Part shown: piece by piece, positions 16,034-51,908 of the stretch
Layout of the letters: each line of letters begins with the position of its first letter
Position numbering within the stretch: the first letter of the stretch is position 1
Assembly: GCA_026986435.1 (NCBI GenBank)
Contig: JALSOP010000037.1
Coordinates: 1-55,076, forward strand
Direction of reading: 5' to 3'
Length of the DNA stretch: 55,076 bases
Source: Desulfurococcales archaeon
GTDB lineage: Archaea; Thermoproteota; Thermoprotei_A; Sulfolobales; NBVN01
Position numbers and translations under genes: made by a program
The notes under the pieces: model-generated
The model's input: the letters and a program-made list of their open reading frames with translations, nothing else
Told to the model about the DNA's origin: nothing
The model's database searches: none

Positions 16034-17068
16034 ATGAAACATTTAGTAGCGGATCTCACGGGTAAAGACTTAATCACGACCCAGGACTGGAGCGTTGAGG
16101 AACTCAGGCTCGCCATAGAACTTGCAAAGGACCTGAAGAGGCGGTACGTACATTACGGAATAGAGGGTATACCGAAGATACTGGATAGGAAGACGTTCTT
16201 CATGCTCTTCTACGCCCCCTCCACCAGGACCAGGGCTGCCTTCGAGGCTGCGATGACCTACCTCGGCGGCCACGCCCAGTACATCGAGGCCAGGATGACC
16301 AGGATGGGTGAGGGTGAGAAGGTCAAGGACGTAGTGACTATGTACGAGAGATACGGGCAGGGCCTCGGCATAAGGATACTTGATAAGGCGATAGACTTCA
16401 AGCACGGCGTTGGCAACGCCATCATAAGAGAGGCCGCCAAGCACATCAGCATACCCGTCATCAACATGGCTGACGACCAGTTCCACCCCACGCAGGGACT
16501 CGCCGACTACATGACCTTCGAGGAGGTCTTCCCGAACCCGAAGGGCAAGAAATACGTCATCATGTGGGCGTACTCCCCGCACGTCAGGGGGCCGTGCAGC
16601 GTCAACGAGGACCTCCTCCTCTTCACGAGGATGGGTGTTGACGTGACCGTGGTCTACCCGCCGGAGTTCGAGCTATACCCGGACATCGTGGAGATGGCTA
16701 AGAAGAACGCTGAAGCGAGTGGCGCTCACCTCGAATTCAGCAACGACTACAAGGAGGCACTGAGCGGCGCCCACGCCGTCTTCCCGAGGAACTGGGCGAC
16801 CAGGCAGCTCCAAGAGCTGGGGTACAGCAAGTTCGCTGAGCAGGAGCTACAGATATACGAGAAGTACAAAGACTGGAAGGTCACTAAGGACCTTATGGAC
16901 CTCATGGACAAGAGCGGTGTTCTGATGCACGTCATGCCCATAATGAGGGGCTACGAGGCCGACGACGAGGTCGTAGACTCACCTAGGTCCGTGCTCTACG
17001 AGCAGGCCGAGAACGGACTCTGGACCAAGGCCGCGGTCCTCGCCCTAACCATGGCCAACATAAGGTGA
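16034..17068 (+). CDS. Carbamoyltransferase (ornithine/YgeW-like family), copy 1
   Basis: FYAPSTRTRAAFEAAMTYLGGHAQYI, HPTQGLADYMT, FPRNWA, HVMPIMRGYEADDEVVD. Confidence 0.85.
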   Translation: MKHLVADLTGKDLITTQDWSVEELRLAIELAKDLKRRYVHYGIEGIPKILDRKTFFMLFYAPSTRTRAAFEAAMTYLGGHAQYIEARMTRMGEGEKVKDVVTMYERYGQGLGIRILDKAIDFKHGVGNAIIREAAKHISIPVINMADDQFHPTQGLADYMTFEEVFPNPKGKKYVIMWAYSPHVRGPCSVNEDLLLFTRMGVDVTVVYPPEFELYPDIVEMAKKNAEASGAHLEFSNDYKEALSGAHAVFPRNWATRQLQELGYSKFAEQELQIYEKYKDWKVTKDLMDLMDKSGVLMHVMPIMRGYEADDEVVDSPRSVLYEQAENGLWTKAAVLALTMANIR

Positions 17069-17196
17069 GCGGAATCTTAACATAGATGTGCATAAATGAT
17101 AGGCAAACACAACATAATTTTCTTAACCACCTAAACCAGGCCGCATTAGACTCTCTTTTTAAAAAGCCGACCAATCATTAAGATGAGGTCCTAACC

Positions 17197-18267
17197 ATGG
17201 GACTTCCTTGGTATGTTGGGTACTTCGAGGGTAAGCACTGGCTAACTAACATTGACTACACGCAGGATGACATAAGGAAGGTTATAGAGGCAGCCCTTGA
17301 TCTGAAAAGGAAGTTCAGGAGCCGGGTACCGACCCCCTACCTTAAGGGCAAGACGCTCTTCATGCTGTTCTACAACAGGTCGCTGAGAACCAGAAACAGT
17401 TTCGAGGCCGGCATGTTCCAGCTAGGTGGCCACGCCCACTTCCTCTCCCCGAACGATGTCTACACGCCGACCCTGCCAGAGGACATGGAGCCCTACAAGA
17501 CCGAGGCTATCAGGGACGTGGCCAGGGTGCTCAGCAGGTACGGCGACGGCATAGCCATAAGAATCTACGGTGACGCCGCCAAGTGGCACATTGGCAGGGG
17601 CCACAGGGTCATCGAGGAATTCGCTAAGTGGGCCGAGATACCCGTGCTCAACATGGAGGACGACGTCTACCACCCGTTCCAGGCCCTCGCAGATATTATG
17701 GCGGTCCTGGAGGTGTTGCCAAAGATACAGGGCAAGAAGTTCGTCGTCTCCTACGCCTATAGCGGCGGCCTAAAGCCTCTCGCCGTCCCGCAGAGCGTGA
17801 CCCTAATAGCAGCGATGTTTGGTGCTGAGGTCGTACTGGCTCACCCACCGGGCTTCGAGCTCCAAGACCACATAATCCAGAAGGCTAAGGAGCTCGCCGA
17901 CCAGTACGGCGGCAGCTTCACCATAACCAACAACATGGAGGAGGCCTTCGAGGGCGCCGCCGTGGTCTACCCGAAGGCCTGGTCGCCGAAGGGCTTCTTC
18001 CCGCCGTACAACAGCACTGTGGACAAGGAGGGCGCTAAGGAGTACCAGAAGAAGTTCAAGGACTGGATAGTCACCATGGACCTGCTCGAGAAGGCTGGCA
18101 AGCCGTACTATATGCACTGTGGCCCTGCAGACAGGGGACAGGAGGTCACTGACGAGGTACTCGACAGCTACGAGAGGAGCCTTTACTTCCAGGAGGCGGA
18201 GAACAGGCTCCACGTCCAGAAGGCCGTAATGGCCATGGTCATGGGCTCCAGGTTCCAAGAGTTTTAA
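17197..18267 (+). CDS. Carbamoyltransferase (N-acylornithine/YgeW-like family), copy 2
   Basis: FYNRSLRTRNSFEAGMFQLGGHAHFLSP, YHPFQALADIM, VVYPKAWSPKG, MHCGPADRGQEVTDEVLD. Confidence 0.85.
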   Translation: MGLPWYVGYFEGKHWLTNIDYTQDDIRKVIEAALDLKRKFRSRVPTPYLKGKTLFMLFYNRSLRTRNSFEAGMFQLGGHAHFLSPNDVYTPTLPEDMEPYKTEAIRDVARVLSRYGDGIAIRIYGDAAKWHIGRGHRVIEEFAKWAEIPVLNMEDDVYHPFQALADIMAVLEVLPKIQGKKFVVSYAYSGGLKPLAVPQSVTLIAAMFGAEVVLAHPPGFELQDHIIQKAKELADQYGGSFTITNNMEEAFEGAAVVYPKAWSPKGFFPPYNSTVDKEGAKEYQKKFKDWIVTMDLLEKAGKPYYMHCGPADRGQEVTDEVLDSYERSLYFQEAENRLHVQKAVMAMVMGSRFQEF

Positions 18268-18327
18268 ATCTAAACCTAAAACCCATCCAAACAATCATAA
18301 GAGATCACGAAACTCCGGTGATCGATC

Positions 18328-19293
18328 ATGGCTGAGAGGAATGAGAAATACGTATTAATCGCTCTGGGAGGCAATGCTTTCCAGACCAAAGGTGAACCAG
18401 GTACTACAGAGAATTATTGGAAGAACGCGTACAAGGCGGCTGAGACTATAGTAAAGATTGTCAAAGAAGGCTACAAAGTGGCGATCACCCATGGAAACGG
18501 CCCCCAGGTCGGTACCATACTTGAGTGGATGGAGAGGTCAAAGGACAAGATACCTCCACTCGCGATGGATATAGCCGGGGCAATGACGCAAGGCTGGCTC
18601 GGCTACCTACTGATGCAGTCGATAGGTAACCTCCTCATTAAGGAGGGTATTAAGGACCACATTAAGGGAGTGGTTGCCATAGTAAATCAGGTGCTCGTAA
18701 GCAAGGACGACCCCGCATGGCAGAACCCGACGAAGTACGTGGGCAGCTACTACACTGAGGAGGAGGCGAAGCGCCTGGCCAAGGAGAAGGGCTGGGTAAT
18801 CAAGCCTGACCCAAGAGGCGGCTGGAGGAGGGTTGTGCCCTCTCCCGACCCCAAGCAGAACATTGAGGTAGAAGCTGTGAAGAAGCTGCTTGATGAGGGC
18901 TGGATAGTGATAGCATCGGGAGGCGGCGGGATACCGGTGATCAAGGAGGAGGACGGCACCCTAAAGGGTGTTGAGGCGGTGATCGACAAGGACCTAGCTG
19001 GCGAAGTCCTAGCGACTGAGCTGGGTGTCGGCCAGTTTATAATCCTTACCGACGTTGACGGTGTCTATCTGAACTTCAAGCAGCCCAACCAGAAGAAGCT
19101 CGACGTGGTGAAGGCCTCAGAGCTCGAGAAGTACTACAAGGAGGGCCACTTCAAGCCAGGCTCCATGGGCCCGAAGGTACTGGCAGCGATCAGGTTCGTG
19201 AGGCACGGCGGTCTCAGGGCGGCCATCGGCCACCTAAAGCAGGGCTATGAAGTCGTTAAGGGCCAGGCAGGAACTACGATACTCCCAGACTAA
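18328..19293 (+). CDS. arcC: Carbamate kinase
   Basis: ALGGNAFQTKGEPGT, THGNGPQVGTILEW, VVPSPDPKQNIE, VIDKDLAGEVLA, GSMGPKVLAA. Confidence 0.95.
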   Translation: MAERNEKYVLIALGGNAFQTKGEPGTTENYWKNAYKAAETIVKIVKEGYKVAITHGNGPQVGTILEWMERSKDKIPPLAMDIAGAMTQGWLGYLLMQSIGNLLIKEGIKDHIKGVVAIVNQVLVSKDDPAWQNPTKYVGSYYTEEEAKRLAKEKGWVIKPDPRGGWRRVVPSPDPKQNIEVEAVKKLLDEGWIVIASGGGGIPVIKEEDGTLKGVEAVIDKDLAGEVLATELGVGQFIILTDVDGVYLNFKQPNQKKLDVVKASELEKYYKEGHFKPGSMGPKVLAAIRFVRHGGLRAAIGHLKQGYEVVKGQAGTTILPD

Positions 19294-19508
19294 GCGTAAT
19301 AGGATACAGATTTTTATCTTAACATTTTTATTAAATTTTCCGTTAGCTTGTATACAATATCCTCTAATTCTAATTTTAATCTAAGTTATCTTAACTAAAT
19401 AATGTACACTTAAAGCCAATAATGCCTACCCTGCGTCTCGCTTATTTGCTTTCCTTAATTAACGGTTTATTAAAAGGTATGTCGGTGATAGATTTCTAGG
19501 AGAGGATT

Positions 19509-20897
19509 ATGAAAGATAAAGTTGACATACTCATAAATAACGCCCTCGTTGTCACTATGAACAGAAACAGAGATGTAATACCTAGAGGTTTTGTCGCCAT
19601 AAGAGATGGAAAAATAGTCGATGTTGGGGTCGGTGACGGTACCAGCAAGTACGAGTCTGAGGAGATTGTTGAGGGTCGGCGCACTGTTGTAACACCTGGA
19701 TTCGTGTGCGCTCACACACACTTTTACGGTGTGCTCCTCGCAGCATCCACGTGGTTTGGGTTGATTGAGCCGCCTACTGACTTTCAGCAGAATCTTCAGA
19801 GGATATGGTGGGCTCTTGACGAGAACATAACGTACGATGACATATACGTAGCTTCGCTGATGGGCTCCATAATGTTTGCAAGGACAGGCACAACATTCTT
19901 CAAAGACATGAATTCCTCGCCAAACTCGGTGACAAACGGACTAGACTACATAAGGAAAGGAGCGGAGGAGGTCGGTTTAAGGGGTTTTGCAGGCTTCTGC
20001 GCTACGCAGAGGAGGAGCCCTGAGGAGGGGTTCAAAATAATCGCAGAGAACGAGAGATTCGTTAGGGAGACGCATTCTGATCCCAAGGCAAGGGTTAAGG
20101 GATTCTTCGCTGTACACGCGTCCTTTACTGTGACTGATGAAGTGCTGACAAAGACAAAGGAGCTAGCGGACAAGTACGGAACAATTTATGCGATGCACGT
20201 TGAAGAGGGCCTTATAGACGTGTACCACAATATCGAGAGATACGGTAAAAGACCAATAGAAAGGCTGAGGGACATAGGCTTCCTCTCTGATAGATTCGTG
20301 GCCGTGCATGTTGTGCAGGCGATTGATGAAGAACTTAAAATTATTAAGGAGTACGGGGTAAATGTGGCACATAATGCTATGAGCAATATGATAAACGGTG
20401 TCGGTGTTCCACGCATTCAGAAGATGCTGGAACTCGGCATAAATGTTGCCATAGGTAATGATGGTTATGTATTCGATGTATTCGATAACATGAGGTCAAC
20501 ATACCTTGTGCATAAGGTCGTGAATAAAGATCCGAGGATCCTAGCCCCTCTAGACGTAATTGAGATGGCGACAATCAACGCAGCCAAGGCCCTGCACATG
20601 GACGACAGAATAGGGTCTATAGAGCCGGGTAAGGACGCTGACATAGTCATCATAAGACCAGAGTTTGTGCCAACACCTCTGAACGAGAAGACAGTCTACG
20701 GTCATATAGTGAATACGTTCACTGGCCAGGACGTGTGGGGCGTCCTTGTGGAGGGTAGGTGGGTGACTAAGGAGAGGAAGTTCATGACAGTGGATGTCGA
20801 GGAGGCTATGGAAAAGGCTCATAAGACAATAGAGAGACTCTGGGACAGGATGGCGTCCATGGAGGAAAAGTACAAGATAGAGTACCTCCGCGCATGA
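19509..20897 (+). CDS. Amidohydrolase-superfamily aminohydrolase, SsnA-like
   Basis: VVTPGFVCAHTHFYGVLL, RIWWALDENI, MHVEEG, VAHNAMSNMINGVG, NDGYVFDVFDNMR, C-terminal LWDRM. Confidence 0.85.
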   Translation: MKDKVDILINNALVVTMNRNRDVIPRGFVAIRDGKIVDVGVGDGTSKYESEEIVEGRRTVVTPGFVCAHTHFYGVLLAASTWFGLIEPPTDFQQNLQRIWWALDENITYDDIYVASLMGSIMFARTGTTFFKDMNSSPNSVTNGLDYIRKGAEEVGLRGFAGFCATQRRSPEEGFKIIAENERFVRETHSDPKARVKGFFAVHASFTVTDEVLTKTKELADKYGTIYAMHVEEGLIDVYHNIERYGKRPIERLRDIGFLSDRFVAVHVVQAIDEELKIIKEYGVNVAHNAMSNMINGVGVPRIQKMLELGINVAIGNDGYVFDVFDNMRSTYLVHKVVNKDPRILAPLDVIEMATINAAKALHMDDRIGSIEPGKDADIVIIRPEFVPTPLNEKTVYGHIVNTFTGQDVWGVLVEGRWVTKERKFMTVDVEEAMEKAHKTIERLWDRMASMEEKYKIEYLRA

Positions 20898-20903
20898 GAT
20901 TTT

Positions 20904-22139
20904 GTGGGGGTGAATAAGGTGGCGGTGGATCTAACCGTAGAGATAGCGGGCCTAAAGTTCAAGAACCCGATCCTAAACTCCGCATGCCCTATATCAAGGG
21001 ATGGCCCAGCCATGGAGAGGCTGGCCGAGGCCGGCATAGGAGGCTTAGTGAGCAAGACCATAGGTGTCGTCGCTGCCAAGGTGCCGAGGCCTCACATGGG
21101 CGTGGTGAACAGAGGCATAATTGACATGGTCGTGCCGACCTACAGAGGAGGGCAGTTCCAGACAAGAGTCAACAAAATAAGGGGTGCGTTCTACGGACTC
21201 CTCAACGCAGAGCTATGGACAGATCTTCCGCCGGAGCAGTGGTTCGAGAAGGAGTTACCCTATGCTAGGAAAGTTGCCGACAAGTTCGGAATACCCCTGA
21301 TTGCCAGTATCGGCTATAAGCCTCACGAGCTGAAGGAACTAGGGCCAAAGGCTGTTAAGGCCGGTGCCGAGGGCATAGAGTTCTCTACCCACTACCTCGG
21401 CTACGACTACAGGCCAGTAATTGAGTCGGCAAAGGCACTGAGGGAGGCTGTGGATGTGCCAATATTCCCGAAGCTCTCACCACACATCTTCGGACTGACC
21501 GAGATGGTCAAAGAGCTTGAGCAGGTCGGTGTAGACGGTATAGTGGCTATAAATACCGTTGGTCCAGCCCTTCACATAGACATTGAGACTGGCAGGCCGT
21601 ATATGGGTGGTCCCTTTGGCCACGGCTGGCTCTCGGGCCCCGCGATAAAGCCCATAGGTGTAGCAATAGTAGCGGAGATAGCGAAGAACACTAAGCTCCC
21701 CGTGATCGGTGTCGGAGGCGTCACTACGCCTGAAGACGTGATCGAGTACATAATGGCCGGTGCCTCGGCGGTGCAAGTCTGTACATCGGTTCTCGTAGAA
21801 GGTCTTGGGGTGATAAAGAAGCTTGTCGAGGGGGTTGAGAAGTGGCTGAAGGAGCACGGCTACTCATCGATAGAGGACATAAAGGGTAAGGCCCTGAAGT
21901 ACCTGACAAAGGAGCCAGGGTGGTGGGAGATAAAGTCGCCGAAGGTTAACGAGGAACTCTGTATCTCGTGCGGGCTCTGTGAGCAGGTCTGTGACTACGA
22001 CGCTGTCCACCTCGTCAACAAGGGCGGTAAACTACTGCCCGTGGTGAACGAGCAGAAGTGCTACGGCTGTGGTCTCTGTACGACGGCCTGCCCGACCAGG
22101 GCGATACACTTCCCGGACGAGTACTGGCCCAAGATATGA
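20904..22139 (+). CDS. Dihydropyrimidine dehydrogenase (PreA)-like flavin/Fe-S oxidoreductase
   Basis: DHOD-type barrel (FKNPILNSACPISRDG, KLSPHI, INTV, GVGGVTTPEDVIEYIMAGASAVQV) plus two C-terminal 4Fe-4S motifs CISCGLCEQVC and CYGCGLCTTAC. Confidence 0.82.
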   Translation: MGVNKVAVDLTVEIAGLKFKNPILNSACPISRDGPAMERLAEAGIGGLVSKTIGVVAAKVPRPHMGVVNRGIIDMVVPTYRGGQFQTRVNKIRGAFYGLLNAELWTDLPPEQWFEKELPYARKVADKFGIPLIASIGYKPHELKELGPKAVKAGAEGIEFSTHYLGYDYRPVIESAKALREAVDVPIFPKLSPHIFGLTEMVKELEQVGVDGIVAINTVGPALHIDIETGRPYMGGPFGHGWLSGPAIKPIGVAIVAEIAKNTKLPVIGVGGVTTPEDVIEYIMAGASAVQVCTSVLVEGLGVIKKLVEGVEKWLKEHGYSSIEDIKGKALKYLTKEPGWWEIKSPKVNEELCISCGLCEQVCDYDAVHLVNKGGKLLPVVNEQKCYGCGLCTTACPTRAIHFPDEYWPKI

Positions 22140-22226: not shown

Positions 22227-23504
22227 TTGAGTAGGTTCATTAAGTACCTAAAATGTTCCAGGTGCGGCAAGATCTACCCGTACGAGGATGCCCGGATAAC
22301 GTGTGAAAAGAATGACCTAGGTAGGCTCGACATACACTACGATTACGAAGCGATGAAGGAGGTCGTGACAAAAGAGTACCTGGCCAAGATACCGCTTGAG
22401 AGTATGTGGAAGTACAAAGACCTCATCCCGCCGAAGGACGAGAGCAAGATCGTTAGCCTGGGCGAGGGCGCTACCCCGCTGATAAAGGCAAAGAGGCTGG
22501 CGGAGGAGCTCGGCCTGAAGAACCTCTACCTGAAGGACGAGACCAGGAACCCTACGGGCTCGTTTAAGGACAGGGGCATGTCGGTGGCGGTGAGCGTTGC
22601 TAAGGAGTTCGGCTTTACTAAGGCAGTAACAGCGTCCAGCGGTAATGCCGCCGCTGCACTAGCGGCTTATGGTGCTAGGGCCGGGATCGACGTCATAGCA
22701 TTCGTGATAGAGCAGGCTGGCTACGGCAAGATAGCCCAGCTCCTCTTCTACGGAGCTAAGGTGTTCAGGGTGCGCGGACTCGGTAGGGAGGACCCGACCG
22801 TCAAGCTGATGAGGATGGTGCACGAGAGGTTCGGCTTCTACATGGCCCCGAGTTTCGGCCCCTTCAACCCGTACCAGATCGAGGGACCCAAGACGATCTC
22901 ATACGAGATCGTGGAGCAGCTGGGCTGGAGGAGCCCTGACTGGGTCTTCGTCCCTGTTGGGGCGGCATCACTCCTCACAGGCGTCTGGAAGGGGTTCAGG
23001 GACTTTAGGGAGCTAGGCATAATACCTGACCTACCCCACCTCTTCGCTGTTCAATCAACGGGTAACCCGCCCTTTGTGAGGGCGTTCAAGGAAGGGCAGG
23101 ACCCATTCAACATAAAGCCTTGGGATCATCCTCACACGATAGCGTGGGGGCTGGAGGACCCGTACCCCTGGGACGGTGATGCAGGCATAGCGGCTCTTAA
23201 GGAAACCAAGGGTGACGCCGAGGAGGTCCCAGACGAACTAATACTGAAGGCAATGAAGCTCCTGGCCTCCAGGGAGGGTGTGTTCGCGGAGCCCTCCGGC
23301 GCGGCCGGCCTCGCTGGCCTCATGGCCGCCCTCGAGGATGGGAGGGTTGATAAGGATGAGGAGGTAGTGGTTCTCGTCACTGGCCACGGGCTCAAAGACC
23401 CAGATGTGGTTAAGGAGAGCGCGGGTGATGCTCCGACGATCAGTGCTGACCTCGAGGAGTTCAAGTTCGTTCTGAGCAAGGCCTACGGTATCAAGATTCA
23501 GTGA
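22227..23504 (+). CDS. Threonine synthase-like PLP-dependent enzyme (fold type II)
   Basis: N-terminal KCSRCGKIYP, LGEGATPLIKAKRLAEELGLKNLYLKDETRNPTGSFKDRGM, SSGNAAAALAAYGARAG. Confidence 0.85.
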   Translation: MSRFIKYLKCSRCGKIYPYEDARITCEKNDLGRLDIHYDYEAMKEVVTKEYLAKIPLESMWKYKDLIPPKDESKIVSLGEGATPLIKAKRLAEELGLKNLYLKDETRNPTGSFKDRGMSVAVSVAKEFGFTKAVTASSGNAAAALAAYGARAGIDVIAFVIEQAGYGKIAQLLFYGAKVFRVRGLGREDPTVKLMRMVHERFGFYMAPSFGPFNPYQIEGPKTISYEIVEQLGWRSPDWVFVPVGAASLLTGVWKGFRDFRELGIIPDLPHLFAVQSTGNPPFVRAFKEGQDPFNIKPWDHPHTIAWGLEDPYPWDGDAGIAALKETKGDAEEVPDELILKAMKLLASREGVFAEPSGAAGLAGLMAALEDGRVDKDEEVVVLVTGHGLKDPDVVKESAGDAPTISADLEEFKFVLSKAYGIKIQ

Positions 23505-30735: not shown

Positions 30736-32592
30736 TCAGTCCCTTAGATCAACTAAGTCTCTCAGCCCCTCGTACACGAAGCCTAGGCCGAGCCTCTCCA
30801 GAGTTGACTTCTTCGGCGCGCCTCTCTCGTCCCAGCCTCTTAGCTCGTAGTACTTGCTCAGCATCCTGTCGTAGCCGTCCCTGTCGAGCTTGGCGCCAGC
30901 CAGCGGCCCCTTGGTTAGGGGCTCCGTGAACCACCTCTCAGGCGGGTAGTCCATGTGCCTGCCCCAACCCCTTCCCTCGGCGGCGTATTCCCTCACCCAG
31001 AACGCCCTAATGAGTGTGTAGACTCTCTCCGCCAACTTATGGAGGTCGTCCCATGTGAAGCTCACTCCTGTCGCCGCTTTCAAGAACTTCGGGTAGTAGT
31101 CGAGGTTGAGGCCGAGCTCCACCCACGGCAGCCTGCACGTTACGAGGGACTCGAATACTGCTCCCCTAACGTTCTGCATCCAAACGAGATTCTCTACCTT
31201 CTCATCGGTGTACTTATCCCTACCCATCTTTATCTCCAGCGATATGAACCATGCATCCTTGTGGTGGGCCCCTATGGAGCTCGTGCCGTAGGCCAGAGCC
31301 ATGCCTGGTGCGGCGTGGCAGTCGTATGCCGAGATCTCCAGGCCCTTAACCTGCATGGCGAAGGCCATGGCGCCGTTCCCGAGCTTCTCGGCGGCGGCCC
31401 TGGTGCCCTCCGCCATCAGGTTCCCGAGTTCCCCTCTCCTGTACGCTATGTCCTCCGTCAACTGTACGGCGGCGTCGAAGTCGCCCCACTCAATCCCGTC
31501 CTTTATGAGGCCTTTCTCGGTAGCCTCCATGGCGAAGGCTATTGAGGAGCCGAGGCTTATTGTATCTAGTCCCAGGTCGTCCGCGAGTTTATTCAGGTGG
31601 GACACCTTATTGAGGTCCCCTATACCTATGTTGGAGCCGAGCATCGCGACGTTCTCGTAGTCGAGCTCTGCCCTGGCCTTAGTGCTGCCTACCTGGTACT
31701 CGACAATGTTTCCGCATGGCATGTTGCAGTTGGGACACCCCTTCTGCGCCACCTTCATCTTCTCCATGGTGTAGCCGTCGATCCCGCTGGCGAAGTCGTA
31801 GACGCCCTCACGGAAGTTGTAAGTGGGTAGCACGGAGTTCTTGTTAGACCACTCAATGGTCATCATGGTGCCCTGCCTGATCCAGAAGTCGTAGCCATCC
31901 GCCTCTTTCACCACCCTGTAGGCCTCAGCCCCAAGCCGTACGAGCTCGGCCTGGTCAGCGGGCTTCGGAAGCTCCTTGCACCCCTTAATCACGATGGTCT
32001 TCAGCTTCTTTGAGCCCATCACCGCACCCATGCCTGGCCTGCCGCCCGAGCGGCCGAACTCGCTTATAACTGTGGCGAACTTGACCAAGTTCTCCCCTGC
32101 CGGGCCTATGTACAGGGCTCCGGCGTTCTTTCCGTACTCGGCGTAGAGCTTCGGCTCGAGGTCATGGACACGCATACCCCATATGTCCTCCGCGGGCTCG
32201 ATGGATGCCTTACCGCACTCAACAACCAGCTTTACGGGCTTGTCGGAAGCGCCCGTAATCACTAGAGCATCATGTCCCGCCTTCCTAAGCTCCACAGCTG
32301 CCCTAGTACCTATGTTGCCGTCGCCGTATCCGTGAGTGAGGGGTGATTTGGCGGCGATCACCATCTTACCCGAGGAGGGCAGGGGGTATCCCGTGAGCGG
32401 CCCCACAGCGAATATGAGCACGTTGTCAGGGCTCAGCGGATCAGTCCCTGGTTTCACGAGGTCCCAGAGGAGCCTGATCGCCAGGCCCCTGCCGCCAAGG
32501 TAGTTCAGCAAGGTTTCCTTGTCGAGACTTACCTCGGTGATCTTTCTTGTTGTCAGGTTCACTAGGAGATATTTCCCATTCCATCCAAACAT
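30736..32592 (-). CDS. aor: Tungsten-dependent aldehyde:ferredoxin oxidoreductase family protein
   Basis: YLGGRGLAIRLLWDLVKPG, GRSGGRPGMGAVMGSKKLKTIVIKG, GCPNCNMPCGNI, LGLDTISLGSSIAFAME. Confidence 0.93.
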   Translation of the reverse strand: MFGWNGKYLLVNLTTRKITEVSLDKETLLNYLGGRGLAIRLLWDLVKPGTDPLSPDNVLIFAVGPLTGYPLPSSGKMVIAAKSPLTHGYGDGNIGTRAAVELRKAGHDALVITGASDKPVKLVVECGKASIEPAEDIWGMRVHDLEPKLYAEYGKNAGALYIGPAGENLVKFATVISEFGRSGGRPGMGAVMGSKKLKTIVIKGCKELPKPADQAELVRLGAEAYRVVKEADGYDFWIRQGTMMTIEWSNKNSVLPTYNFREGVYDFASGIDGYTMEKMKVAQKGCPNCNMPCGNIVEYQVGSTKARAELDYENVAMLGSNIGIGDLNKVSHLNKLADDLGLDTISLGSSIAFAMEATEKGLIKDGIEWGDFDAAVQLTEDIAYRRGELGNLMAEGTRAAAEKLGNGAMAFAMQVKGLEISAYDCHAAPGMALAYGTSSIGAHHKDAWFISLEIKMGRDKYTDEKVENLVWMQNVRGAVFESLVTCRLPWVELGLNLDYYPKFLKAATGVSFTWDDLHKLAERVYTLIRAFWVREYAAEGRGWGRHMDYPPERWFTEPLTKGPLAGAKLDRDGYDRMLSKYYELRGWDERGAPKKSTLERLGLGFVYEGLRDLVDLRD

Positions 32593-32698: not shown

Positions 32699-33373
32699 AT
32701 GCCTAAGGTCCCCACCAAGCTTGTTAGCTGGGACGACATCGTCGAGTGGTCGAGGGGGCTAGCAAGAAAGATTAAGGATTCCGGTTATAGACCGGACGTG
32801 ATCGTAGCTATAGCCAGGGGAGGCTTCGTTCCTGCCAGGCTTCTCTGTGACTTCCTCGACGTCGAGAACCTCCTCTCGATCCAGTCACAGCACTGGACCG
32901 AGGCGGCCAAGGTAGCTGACAGAGCCATAATCAAGTTCCCGTATAAGGTAGAACTAACTGGTATGAAGGTGCTGATCGTCGACGACATAGTCGACACAGG
33001 CGAGTCACTGATCCTGGCCAGGGACTACATCATGAGGGAGTGGAAGCCCGAGGAAGTGAGGATAGCAGCTCTGCAGTGGATATCGCCAGTGGCTAAGCTG
33101 AGACCTGACTACTACTTCATCGAGATTAAGGAATGGATATGGTTCCAGTACCCGTGGACCAGGCTAGAGGACACTTACCAGTTCATAAAGAGGATGCTGT
33201 CTGAGGAGGGCAAGTACAAGAAAGAGTGGAGTTATGAGGAACTAAAAACTAAGTTCATGGAGTGGTACGACATCGACGTCGGGGATGAGTACTTCAGGGA
33301 CGCCATAGAAATGCTTGTAGAGAAGGGGTTCCTGTCCAGGATCGATAAGGACAGGTTCCGTATTAAGGAGTGA
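32699..33373 (+). CDS. Purine-type phosphoribosyltransferase
   Basis: PDVIVAIARGGFVPARLL; KVLIVDDIVDTGESL PRPP loop. Confidence 0.88.
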   Translation: MPKVPTKLVSWDDIVEWSRGLARKIKDSGYRPDVIVAIARGGFVPARLLCDFLDVENLLSIQSQHWTEAAKVADRAIIKFPYKVELTGMKVLIVDDIVDTGESLILARDYIMREWKPEEVRIAALQWISPVAKLRPDYYFIEIKEWIWFQYPWTRLEDTYQFIKRMLSEEGKYKKEWSYEELKTKFMEWYDIDVGDEYFRDAIEMLVEKGFLSRIDKDRFRIKE

Positions 33374-34324: not shown

Positions 34325-35704
34325 TTGGCAGACCTAATGATAAAGGCGAAATTCATTATCCCGGTCAGGCCCTCAAAGAAGATCATACGCGATGGCGCCA
34401 TCGTCGTTGAGGACGAGCGGATAGTGTTTGTTGGTAAGCGCCACGTGGCCGAGGAAAAATATAGTGCTGAGGAGGTGATTGAGGCTAATCACCACGTAGC
34501 TATTCCGGGACTGGTTAATGCTCACAACCACCTCTTTCAGTCGATAATCAAGAACATAGCCATCGATATGGTGTTGATTGACTGGTTAAGGAAGGCCATA
34601 CACCCGATACTTGCGTCGTTCCGTGACTTGGACTTCTACTACTCCACGAAGTGGGGCGTGATAGAGAACATAAAGTCGGGTGTCACCACGCTCATAGAGA
34701 ACCACTACGGTCCCAAGGGATACGACTACGTCGCTAAGGGGCTCATGGAGTCAGGCATAAGGACAGTCCTTGCCAGGGGCATATACGAGCTCAACGTGCT
34801 ACTCGATGAGCTCAAGGAGGAGCCGAAAGCGGCGATCTCCCACACTGAGTACCTCATACAGAAGTATCACGGAAAGAACGACGGAAAAATGATGGTTGCC
34901 GTCGCGCCGATGCATCCATACAATTCGAGCAAGGATTTACTCCTCATGGCCAAGGAACTCTCTGATAAGTATGGGGTGCCTTACCACACTCATACGGCCG
35001 AGTCCGTGAAGGACCAGGAGCTGGTGAAGGAGCTTCACGGAAATACAGATGTCGCGCTACTGTACGACCTCGGGATCCTTGGCCCAAGATACCACGCAGT
35101 ACACTCTGTGCAGGTGTCTGAGGAAGAAGTACTTATGTTGGCTAAGACAGGTGCCCACGTAATACACAACCCAGAGAGCAACCTAATAATAGGTTCAGGC
35201 ATAGCACCGATACCCGACTTCCTCAAAGCAGGCGTTAACGTAGCCCTCGGCACAGACGGTGCGGGAAGTAACAATAACCAAGACATGATAGAGGCCATGA
35301 GGTTTGCGGTGCTCATACACAGGGGGGCTAGGAAGCACCCGAACATAGTAACTGCTTGGGACGCCCTAGAGATGGCCACAATTAATGGTGCGAGGGCCCT
35401 CGGGCTAGAGAATGAGATAGGTTCGCTGGAGCCTGGTAAGAAAGCAGACATAACAATCATAGACCTAGAAAGCCCGAGCATAGCCCTTGCACATGACCCA
35501 CTCGGCTCGATAGTCTACTGTGCAAACGCCGCCGACGTCGACACAGTCGTAGTTGATGGTAAGGTGGTCATGAGGAATAGAAAGGTTCTCACAATAGACG
35601 AGGAGAAGGCCAAAGAAGAGGCGTGGAAGGTCGCGCTGGACCTCCTCGACAGGGCCAGGCAGAAATTCGATATGAAGTTCCCCTACGAAGAATTCATCGA
35701 GTGA
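34325..35704 (+). CDS. Amidohydrolase-superfamily deaminase (SsnA/TrzN/MTA-deaminase-like), second copy
   Basis: GLVNAHNHLFQSI, THTAES, VHSVQVSEEE, HNPESNLIIGSGIAP, ALGTDGAGSNNNQDM. Confidence 0.87.
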   Translation: MADLMIKAKFIIPVRPSKKIIRDGAIVVEDERIVFVGKRHVAEEKYSAEEVIEANHHVAIPGLVNAHNHLFQSIIKNIAIDMVLIDWLRKAIHPILASFRDLDFYYSTKWGVIENIKSGVTTLIENHYGPKGYDYVAKGLMESGIRTVLARGIYELNVLLDELKEEPKAAISHTEYLIQKYHGKNDGKMMVAVAPMHPYNSSKDLLLMAKELSDKYGVPYHTHTAESVKDQELVKELHGNTDVALLYDLGILGPRYHAVHSVQVSEEEVLMLAKTGAHVIHNPESNLIIGSGIAPIPDFLKAGVNVALGTDGAGSNNNQDMIEAMRFAVLIHRGARKHPNIVTAWDALEMATINGARALGLENEIGSLEPGKKADITIIDLESPSIALAHDPLGSIVYCANAADVDTVVVDGKVVMRNRKVLTIDEEKAKEEAWKVALDLLDRARQKFDMKFPYEEFIE

Positions 35705-50758: not shown

Positions 50759-51013
50759 ATGCCCAATCTCTGCACTCACGGTGTTATTGTGCAGAGAAGC
50801 GAGCCAGTGTACAGGTGTTGGTCCTGCGGCAGGATAATCACCTTTGAAGACCTTCGAACGATGGCGCTGAGCTCAGCAGGCGAAGGTATCTTAGAAGGAG
50901 TAGGTACGGAGTACGGTGTCGGTATGAGAATAGCGATAAGATGCCCTCACTGCAACTCACGAATAATCGTTAAGGTTAGACACCCAGCTCCCAAGGTAAT
51001 TAAGGCCGTCTAA
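50759..51013 (+). CDS. Rpo12/RpoP-like zinc-ribbon protein with an inter-knuckle insertion (84 aa)
   Basis: VYRCWSCGRIITFEDL ... IRCPHCNSRIIVKVRHPAPKVIKAV resembles the Rpo12 C-terminus. Confidence 0.7.
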   Translation: MPNLCTHGVIVQRSEPVYRCWSCGRIITFEDLRTMALSSAGEGILEGVGTEYGVGMRIAIRCPHCNSRIIVKVRHPAPKVIKAV

Positions 51014-51908
51014 GAGATGACTTCGCAGCGATAAATTCCATGACAGCCTTCGCAGCGAACATAGACGTTATCATTGATGAGTCATAAGGCGGTGACACCT
51101 CCACAATGTCGATCGCTGCTAACGCGTCGCCGACCTCGTGAATTACGTCAAATACCTCGGTAGGTGTGAGCCCTTCCGGCTCAGGAGTCTGCACGCCGGG
51201 GGCATAGGATGGGTCGAGAACGTCTACGTCGAGAGATATGTAGACGCTGTTACAGGTACTGACGAAATCCCTTATTTTCTCAAGGAGGTCGTTCCTTAAC
51301 GATTTCCTAATTGCTAAGGAACTAACATAATTCACCTTGTTCTCGTTGATGAAGACCATCTCCTCCCTAGAAACAGCCCTGAGACCCACTATCATGACCC
51401 TCTCTATATCCAGGAACTCAAGAACCCGCCTAAGCACGCAGGCGTGGCTGAGCCTATACCCCAAGTACTCATCCCTCAAGTCGGCGTGAGCATCCATTAC
51501 CAGGAGGCACATGCCGCTGATGTGCTGTGCTGCGGCCTTAATAGATCCTATCGATACTGTGTGCTCTCCCCCCAGCACTATCGGGATCTTTCTCTCACTC
51601 AGGAGGTCAGAGACCACCTTCTCAACACGCTTAACGGTCTCGAGTGCGTCGCCGTGTACGACCGCCACGTCACCTACGTCGGCGGGCAGGTATTCTTCTA
51701 CATCGACGCCTGCCCTAAAGGAGTATGTCTCAAGGTTCTGGGCCGCCTGCCTAATGGCTGAGGGGGCGAACCTCGCCCCTGACCTGAACGAGCTAGTGCT
51801 GTCGAAGGGGGCGCCGAGCACAACGAACTTGCTCTCATTGAGCCCTACGTCTACTCCCGCGAACGAGCTGGCTCCTTTATTAACGAAGAGTCGCCAACTC
51901 ATGAACAC
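51000..51908 (-). CDS. Agmatinase/arginase-family ureohydrolase
   Basis: LGGEHTVSIGSI, VMDAHADLRDEYLGYRLSHA, YISLDVDVLDPSYAPGVQTPEPEGLT. Confidence 0.92.
   Translation of the reverse strand: MFMSWRLFVNKGASSFAGVDVGLNESKFVVLGAPFDSTSSFRSGARFAPSAIRQAAQNLETYSFRAGVDVEEYLPADVGDVAVVHGDALETVKRVEKVVSDLLSERKIPIVLGGEHTVSIGSIKAAAQHISGMCLLVMDAHADLRDEYLGYRLSHACVLRRVLEFLDIERVMIVGLRAVSREEMVFINENKVNYVSSLAIRKSLRNDLLEKIRDFVSTCNSVYISLDVDVLDPSYAPGVQTPEPEGLTPTEVFDVIHEVGDALAAIDIVEVSPPYDSSMITSMFAAKAVMEFIAAKSSLRRP

Follow-up and report, generated by a model that had tools for sequence, protein, structure and literature searches.

A transcarbamylase, carbamate kinase and amidohydrolase gene set as the likely core of an archaeal reductive purine degradation pathway

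What would an archaeon do with two transcarbamylases, a carbamate kinase, an amidohydrolase and an iron-sulfur flavoprotein encoded one after another on the same strand? The question is raised by positions 1 to 55,076 of contig JALSOP010000037.1 from a Desulfurococcales archaeon (assembly GCA_026986435.1), the 55,076-nt stretch analysed here and referred to as the window. A preliminary description of this DNA proposed that the five genes open a purine, a pyrimidine or a related cyclic ureide and harvest carbamoyl phosphate from it. The present analysis supports this proposal and narrows the substrate to purine on the strength of an unlinked HyuA, a xanthine dehydrogenase (XDH)-type enzyme, adenine deaminases and the gene clusters of relatives. 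The locus probably encodes the central part of a reductive, anaerobic route for the degradation of uric acid or purines in archaea, operating as an energy-yielding fermentation. In the bacterial reductive pathway, urate is converted by XdhD to yanthine, which is then reduced by YgfK, UacX or an F420-type enzyme; SsnA opens one ring to give ureidomethyl-hydantoin and HyuA the other to give 2,3-diureidopropionate, and the ureido groups are removed by YgeW phosphorolysis and YgeY hydrolysis, leaving diaminopropionate, which YgeX converts to pyruvate (PMC12507026, PMC12990295). The phosphorolysis of diureidopropionate by YgeW has been assayed (PMC12507026).

The open reading frames (ORFs) of all five genes are intact, consecutive and on the + strand, with intergenic gaps of about 6-215 bp, and Pfam and NCBIfam searches returned the gene types named in the preliminary description: a pair of OTCace proteins, a carbamate kinase, an amidohydrolase that most resembles SsnA, and a protein with a dihydroorotate dehydrogenase (DHOD) domain and two [4Fe-4S] motifs that most resembles PreA. 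The extent given there, 16034-22139, was correct for these five but left outside a sixth gene of the same set, which encodes a pyridoxal phosphate (PLP) enzyme resembling threonine synthase. The genes, with a candidate purine deaminase encoded further along the window, are as follows.

16034-17068, + strand: OTC1, knotted-type (YgeW/AOTC-like) predicted catabolic transcarbamylase (344 aa; PF02729 and PF00185)
17197-18267, + strand: OTC2, second knotted-type predicted transcarbamylase (356 aa; best NCBIfam model AOTC)
18328-19293, + strand: carbamate kinase (321 aa; TIGR00746 above cut-off)
19509-20897, + strand: SsnA-like amidohydrolase (462 aa; SsnA models are the top NCBIfam matches)
20904-22139, + strand: PreA/UacX-like flavoprotein, DHOD plus two [4Fe-4S] (411 aa; PF01180 and Fer4)
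22227-23504, + strand: threonine-synthase-like (ThrS-like) PLP enzyme, module paralogue directly after PreA
34325-35704, + strand: AH2, TRZ/ATZ-family amidohydrolase, candidate guanine-type purine deaminase (26.6% identity to E. coli GuaD)

Among the five, carbamate kinase alone passed a curated NCBIfam equivalog cut-off (386.6 bits against 358.25); it is 41% identical to E. coli YqeA, and is predicted to convert carbamoyl phosphate and ADP to ATP, NH3 and CO2. The other four fell under every named subfamily cut-off.

The transcarbamylases are central to the argument. The 1.54 Mb assembly, which is 94% complete, holds four OTCace genes, namely OTC1, OTC2, a canonical OTC on contig C35 and PyrB on C168, and since the latter two are separate biosynthetic genes, both scoring above their model cut-offs, OTC1 and OTC2 are not required for arginine or pyrimidine synthesis. 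OTC1 lies under the cut-offs of the OTC, ATC, AOTC, PTC and YgeW models, and OTC2 reaches 267.8 bits on the AOTC model, where the cut-off is 288. With the biosynthetic OTC model TIGR00658 (cut-off 280.85 bits) they score 197 and 235, respectively, against 421.6 for the C35 gene, and with the YgeW models (TIGR03316 / NF005538; cut-off 453-500 bits) only 139 and 142. The catabolic role that the preliminary description gave to both proteins agrees with the tree, in which OTC1 forms its own clade (SH-aLRT 97, a bacterial row from L106 lying outside) and OTC2 another (SH-aLRT 99, with one row included of OTCx, the transcarbamylase of a different cluster type discussed below). The two clades are separate and group with YgeW, AOTC and OTCx, in an internal order that was not resolved, apart from the biosynthetic OTC and PTC. 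Both proteins keep the carbamoyl-phosphate motifs SxRTR, HPxQ and HxxP and lack the canonical OTC motif, and in the alignment both have a proline-rich insert, WAYSPHVRGPCSVNE in OTC1, at a place where canonical OTC has none, and YAYSGGLKPLAVPQS in OTC2. A proline-rich loop of this kind is treated in PMC4581275 as the mark of knotted transcarbamylases. The predicted structure models of OTC1 and OTC2 are of low confidence exactly at this loop, so the insert in the sequence makes the knot a prediction, and Foldseek searches with the two models gave no distinction between knotted and unknotted types (OTC versus AOTC).

The SsnA-like protein would act on the reduced purine, opening its pyrimidine-derived ring. 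Its best NCBIfam SsnA score is 333.8 against a cut-off of 444, its identity to E. coli SsnA is 28%, and the metal-ligand positions are aligned. Adjoining it is the candidate reductive dearomatase, a PF01180 and Fer4 protein with a best NCBIfam PreA score of 210 (cut-off 335), whose presence is established and whose activity, ferredoxin-linked reductive dearomatisation by a PreA/UacX-like flavoprotein, is a prediction. In the alignment this protein has IEFSTHYxG where dihydropyrimidine dehydrogenase (DPD) has its Cys-bearing loop (NxSCP type); the DPD-type loop is present in E. coli PreA and in the PreA of OTCx clusters, where it reads NFGCPHG.

The ThrS-like protein passes the threonine synthase model TIGR00260 (221.7 against 167.1), and yet a role as an ordinary threonine synthase was rejected because a second, housekeeping ThrC exists in relatives (G001, G002 and others); in the 94% complete assembly of the genome studied here (G000) the module copy was the only one found. 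All 11 module copies that were aligned carry T88A, R160Q and N188A/S (Thermus numbering from the alignment), replacing residues that two housekeeping ThrC retain and that we take to be phosphate-site residues of the Thermus enzyme. The gene clusters with SsnA and OTC genes in other lineages as well. Judged from these residues and this context, the enzyme probably takes the place of YgeX as a 2,3-diaminopropionate ammonia-lyase. A cysteine-synthase-like PALP gene also recurs beside OTC2 or the ThrS-like gene (L105:11111-12139, L134:14954-15982, L164:17679-18830 and L081:3108-4190).

The preliminary description remarked that XDH, hydantoinase and arginine deiminase were missing from the locus. 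For the first two this does not extend to the genome: a HyuA/AllB-like cyclic amidohydrolase of 449 aa (32.7% identity to E. coli HyuA) is encoded on C85 and a three-subunit (M/S/L) XDH-type molybdenum enzyme on C152, and both cluster with the module in relatives. The HyuA protein scores 341.7 on the allantoinase and 328.1 on the hydantoinase model, in both cases below cut-off. The third absence stands, as arginine deiminase (PF02274) had no match in the genome. Two adenine deaminases are also encoded. Another HyuA-like gene (33-37%) lies between two divergent XDH large subunits in genomes with and without the module (G000:C80:7962-9296, G002:C14:508798-514927 and G004:C12:14018-20980), the G000 copy having an in-frame TGA.

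The family set comprised 25 genomes including our own, of which 13 carry the module and 11 do not, with G018 counted apart. The order OTC1-OTC2-CK (carbamate kinase)-SsnA-PreA-ThrS is kept in 12 family members wherever the contig extends, at 67-99% identity, but this was rejected as sole evidence because the flanking housekeeping genes are likewise syntenic; stronger evidence comes from distant archaea in which the genes co-occur and cluster between different flanking genes. Within the family, the ThrS-like gene occurs in 13/13 module-carrying genomes and 0/11 of the others, and the C85 HyuA orthologue in 12/13 and 0/11, the exception (G021) being 69% complete. G018, which is 59% complete, has a full-length carbamate kinase gene and interrupted OTC, SsnA, PLP and HyuA genes (L038:1-3936, G018:C26:146-1219, G018:C28:1580-2730), and may represent pathway decay or poor assembly.

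Across 398 Thermoproteota genomes, OTC1 and SsnA were each found in 35, and 34 of the 36 genomes with either have both, the two exceptions being 82% and 57% complete. The Fisher p value of the association is 6e-47 with shared ancestry ignored, but the genes are repeatedly present together or absent together in seven families. PreA occurs in 21 genomes, all of them within the OTC1/SsnA set. The amidohydrolase is conserved together with the transcarbamylases, and neither of the two findings that the preliminary description named as grounds for its refutation, a firm biosynthetic placement of a transcarbamylase or a lack of co-conservation, was observed. HyuA orthologues above 450 bits were found in 19/20 module-carrying genomes of families f1 (to which our genome belongs), f9 and f12 and in none elsewhere, the twentieth copy being truncated. 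Among module-carrying genomes, 15/16 of those in f9 and f12 have the C152-type XDH, as do 10/13 of those in f1.

Searching for relatives of SsnA turned up 55 loci, and nearly all of these are from archaea, in Desulfurococcales, Nitrososphaeria and Asgard groups. Nearly the whole set lies on one 29.6-kb contig of Desulfurococcaceae archaeon UBA285 (L164/L165), with SsnA-adenine deaminase-AH2-SDR-BMP/ABC transporter, OTC1, PreA-PLP-OTC2-PALP and XdhM-S-L-HyuA; carbamate kinase is not on this contig. Archaeon HR01 and its family (L105/L145) have LLM-SsnA-XdhM-S-L-OTC1, CK-PLP and PALP-OTC2, and in G055 of this family adenine deaminase and a transporter lie next to the cluster. The LLM gene specifies an F420-type luciferase-like protein, found beside SsnA in lineages without PreA. 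Hodarchaeota have SsnA, OTC2 and CK-OTC1. The Staphylothermus-like G186 has all five genes, one XDH, and HyuA adjoining a BMP-family transporter; Staphylothermus marinus has no purine synthesis, and its BMP transporters are thought to carry nucleosides (PMC2678158, PMC3261824). HyuA adjoins adenine deaminase and AH2 in relatives, and AH2 also occurs with SsnA. In G270 (L139) the arrangement is OTC2-HyuA-OTC1, PreA, AH2, PLP and SsnA; AOR-family enzymes are present and XDH is missing. Oxidoreductases of the AOR family, together with FeS proteins, are interspersed among module genes at L139:7876-13897, L091:2200-6312, L084:7455-19138 and L149:6344-9426. The genomes of L139 and L149 (G395) have no XDH homologue, and an AOR-type enzyme may replace XdhD. 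The M20 hydrolase YgeY is not among the module genes, a convincing homologue being present in only one of the clusters examined (L081, next to the PLP gene), and YgeX had no match among cluster ORFs. Thaumarchaeal SsnA-like loci (L086, L089, L109 and L110) were not counted, as their 10-kb flanks contain UbiX-like neighbours and no transcarbamylases, and they probably have another function. Plasmid searches gave distant homologues only.

The archaeal set thus includes every enzyme class up to diureidopropionate. If the homologous enzymes catalyse the reactions known from bacteria, the following scheme can be proposed, in which all substrates and the ATP yield are inferred. Purines or nucleosides would be taken up and deaminated, with AH2 as a candidate deaminase feeding the pathway, and their oxo groups adjusted by the XDH-type molybdenum enzyme. 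The purine ring would then be reduced by PreA with ferredoxin, one ring opened by SsnA and the other by the unlinked HyuA, to give 2,3-diureidopropionate. OTC1 and OTC2 would each phosphorolyse one ureido group and release one carbamoyl phosphate, replacing YgeW and the hydrolase YgeY, while the ThrS-like enzyme would convert 2,3-diaminopropionate to pyruvate and ammonia. Phosphorolysis of both groups is suggested by counting genes: clusters that look like pyrimidine degradation, where one ureido group is expected, have a single transcarbamylase (OTCx). In the simplest reading, each transcarbamylase takes one ureido group and carbamate kinase would form ATP twice, up to two per purine. The scheme in full, with two paralogous knotted transcarbamylases phosphorolysing both ureido groups, doubled substrate-level ATP relative to E. 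coli, a neofunctionalised threonine synthase as diaminopropionate lyase, and another enzyme, perhaps of the AOR family, performing the XDH step in some lineages, we regard as evenly poised between right and wrong.

Several observations weigh against a purine pathway of this kind. In our genome the HyuA and XDH genes lie away from the module, and three module-carrying members of its own family lack the C152-type XDH. No XDH homologue was found in G270, G287 and G395, which carry the core genes, and in G186 just one XDH large subunit was found, while two Mo-type steps are apparently required between xanthine and 2,8-dioxopurine. The SsnA-like protein is distant from its E. coli counterpart and below the model cut-off, neither OTC1 nor OTC2 is an orthologue of YgeW, and the lyase role of the ThrS-like enzyme is based on lost residues and gene context.

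The family membership of PreA could also point to reductive pyrimidine degradation, in which PreA would yield dihydrouracil, a cyclic amidohydrolase N-carbamoyl-beta-alanine, and a transcarbamylase beta-alanine and carbamoyl phosphate. Clusters that look like such a pathway with carbamoyl-beta-alanine phosphorolysis do exist in other Thermoproteota (L171:5540-13470, L173:3037-6982 and L174:1556-6836), where carbamate kinase and a single knotted-type OTCx accompany HyuA-like, Cys-loop PreA, PreT/YgfK-like and aminotransferase genes; a bacterial counterpart may be the preA, cyclic amidohydrolase, OTC-like, cytosine permease, nitrilase and carbamate kinase genes on the Pusillibacter faecalis conjugative plasmid pMM59_01 (L163:14391-25900). 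However, the archaeal clusters of this type keep the loop NFGCPHG that the module PreA lacks and have one transcarbamylase and no SsnA, whereas adenine deaminase, XDH and nucleoside-type transporter genes are the neighbours of the module genes, and the pyrimidine route is considered unlikely. A similarly small chance is given to some other form of purine degradation, for example one in which xanthine or a related N-heterocycle is the direct substrate of SsnA or HyuA and two ureido groups are still the outcome. The lineages with the module and no XDH homologue would fit such a route, but a candidate dearomatase (PreA or LLM) accompanies SsnA in well-sampled clusters, and reduction before ring opening is therefore likely.

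Oxidative degradation of the allantoin type would make HyuA an allantoinase, as its slightly higher score on that model might suggest, and would make allantoate, ureidoglycine or ureidoglycolate the substrate of the transcarbamylases; a ureidoglycine transcarbamylase (UGTCase) is in fact known (PMC4016543, PMC4581275). That enzyme is ATC-like (PMC4581275), in contrast to the knotted-type OTC1 and OTC2, the usual allantoin route requires urate oxidation while the relatives are strictly anaerobic, and SsnA, PreA and the PLP enzyme would be left unexplained, making this very unlikely. The pairing of carbamate kinase with an OTC-family gene is the classic arrangement for citrulline/arginine or agmatine fermentation by a catabolic OTC or putrescine transcarbamylase, and an agmatinase/arginase-like gene is present at 51000-51908 of the window. 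It is nevertheless very improbable that the locus serves this purpose: PF02274, absent from our genome, gave only partial matches, to proteins of about 280 aa, in 4/29 module-carrying genomes, OTC1 and OTC2 are set apart from canonical OTC by motif and in the tree, and SsnA, PreA and HyuA would have no role. Reductive purine degradation is the reading retained here.

Elsewhere in the window, a phosphoribosyltransferase gene (32699-33373), two genes from AH2, resembles xanthine/hypoxanthine phosphoribosyltransferase models below cut-off and is a possible link to purine salvage. The AOR-family gene at 30736-32592 has its counterpart adjoining the phosphoribosyltransferase gene in several relatives too.

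The reductive pathway has previously been reported from bacteria only, and a search of open-licence papers found no archaeal reductive urate pathway. If present in Desulfurococcales, Nitrososphaeria and some Asgard archaea, the pathway would span a second domain of life and offer peptide-fermenting hyperthermophiles an overlooked energy source. It would supply sequence-defined enzymes for studying in which order and by which mode the two ureido groups are cleaved, and the annotations 'ornithine carbamoyltransferase', 'dihydroorotate/dihydropyrimidine dehydrogenase' and 'threonine synthase' would need correction in many archaeal genomes.

Compared with known systems, the module has in common with reductive pyrimidine degradation (PreTA/PydA, dihydropyrimidinase) the logic of a PreA-type flavoprotein and a cyclic amidohydrolase, but its PreA has no catalytic Cys loop and it includes SsnA and two transcarbamylases. 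OTC1 and OTC2 share carbamoyl-phosphate motifs and the proline-rich insert with YgeW, AOTC and SOTC (PMC4581275), but form separate clades and score below the YgeW and AOTC cut-offs. In C. difficile, UacX is a PF01180 (DHO_dh) dearomatase proposed to be ferredoxin-dependent (PMC12507026), and the likeness to the module PreA is at the level of domain class only; 2-ureido removal is hydrolytic there (UacY) and no transcarbamylase is involved, unlike in the archaeal set. Because C. difficile and E. coli also differ from each other in their ureido enzymes, the absence of YgeY is taken as the sign of a variant. A uricolytic variant of Chloroflexota, with an F420 luciferase-like reductase and SsnA (PMC12507026), is matched by LLM-SsnA-XdhMSL in HR01 and its relatives, although the archaeal clusters add OTC1, OTC2, carbamate kinase and PLP genes. 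The reductive uric-acid pathway of E. coli, with XdhD-YgfM, YgfK, SsnA, HyuA, YgeW/YqeA, YgeY and YgeX (PMC12507026), relies on enzymes of the same kinds to dearomatise the purine, open both rings, remove one ureido group by phosphorolysis and supply the carbamate kinase step, and its purine deaminase and transporter neighbours are matched in the archaeal relatives. The identities are low (28-41%), and where E. coli has YgfK, YgeY and YgeX, the archaeal set has PreA/UacX or LLM, a second transcarbamylase and the ThrS-like PLP enzyme.

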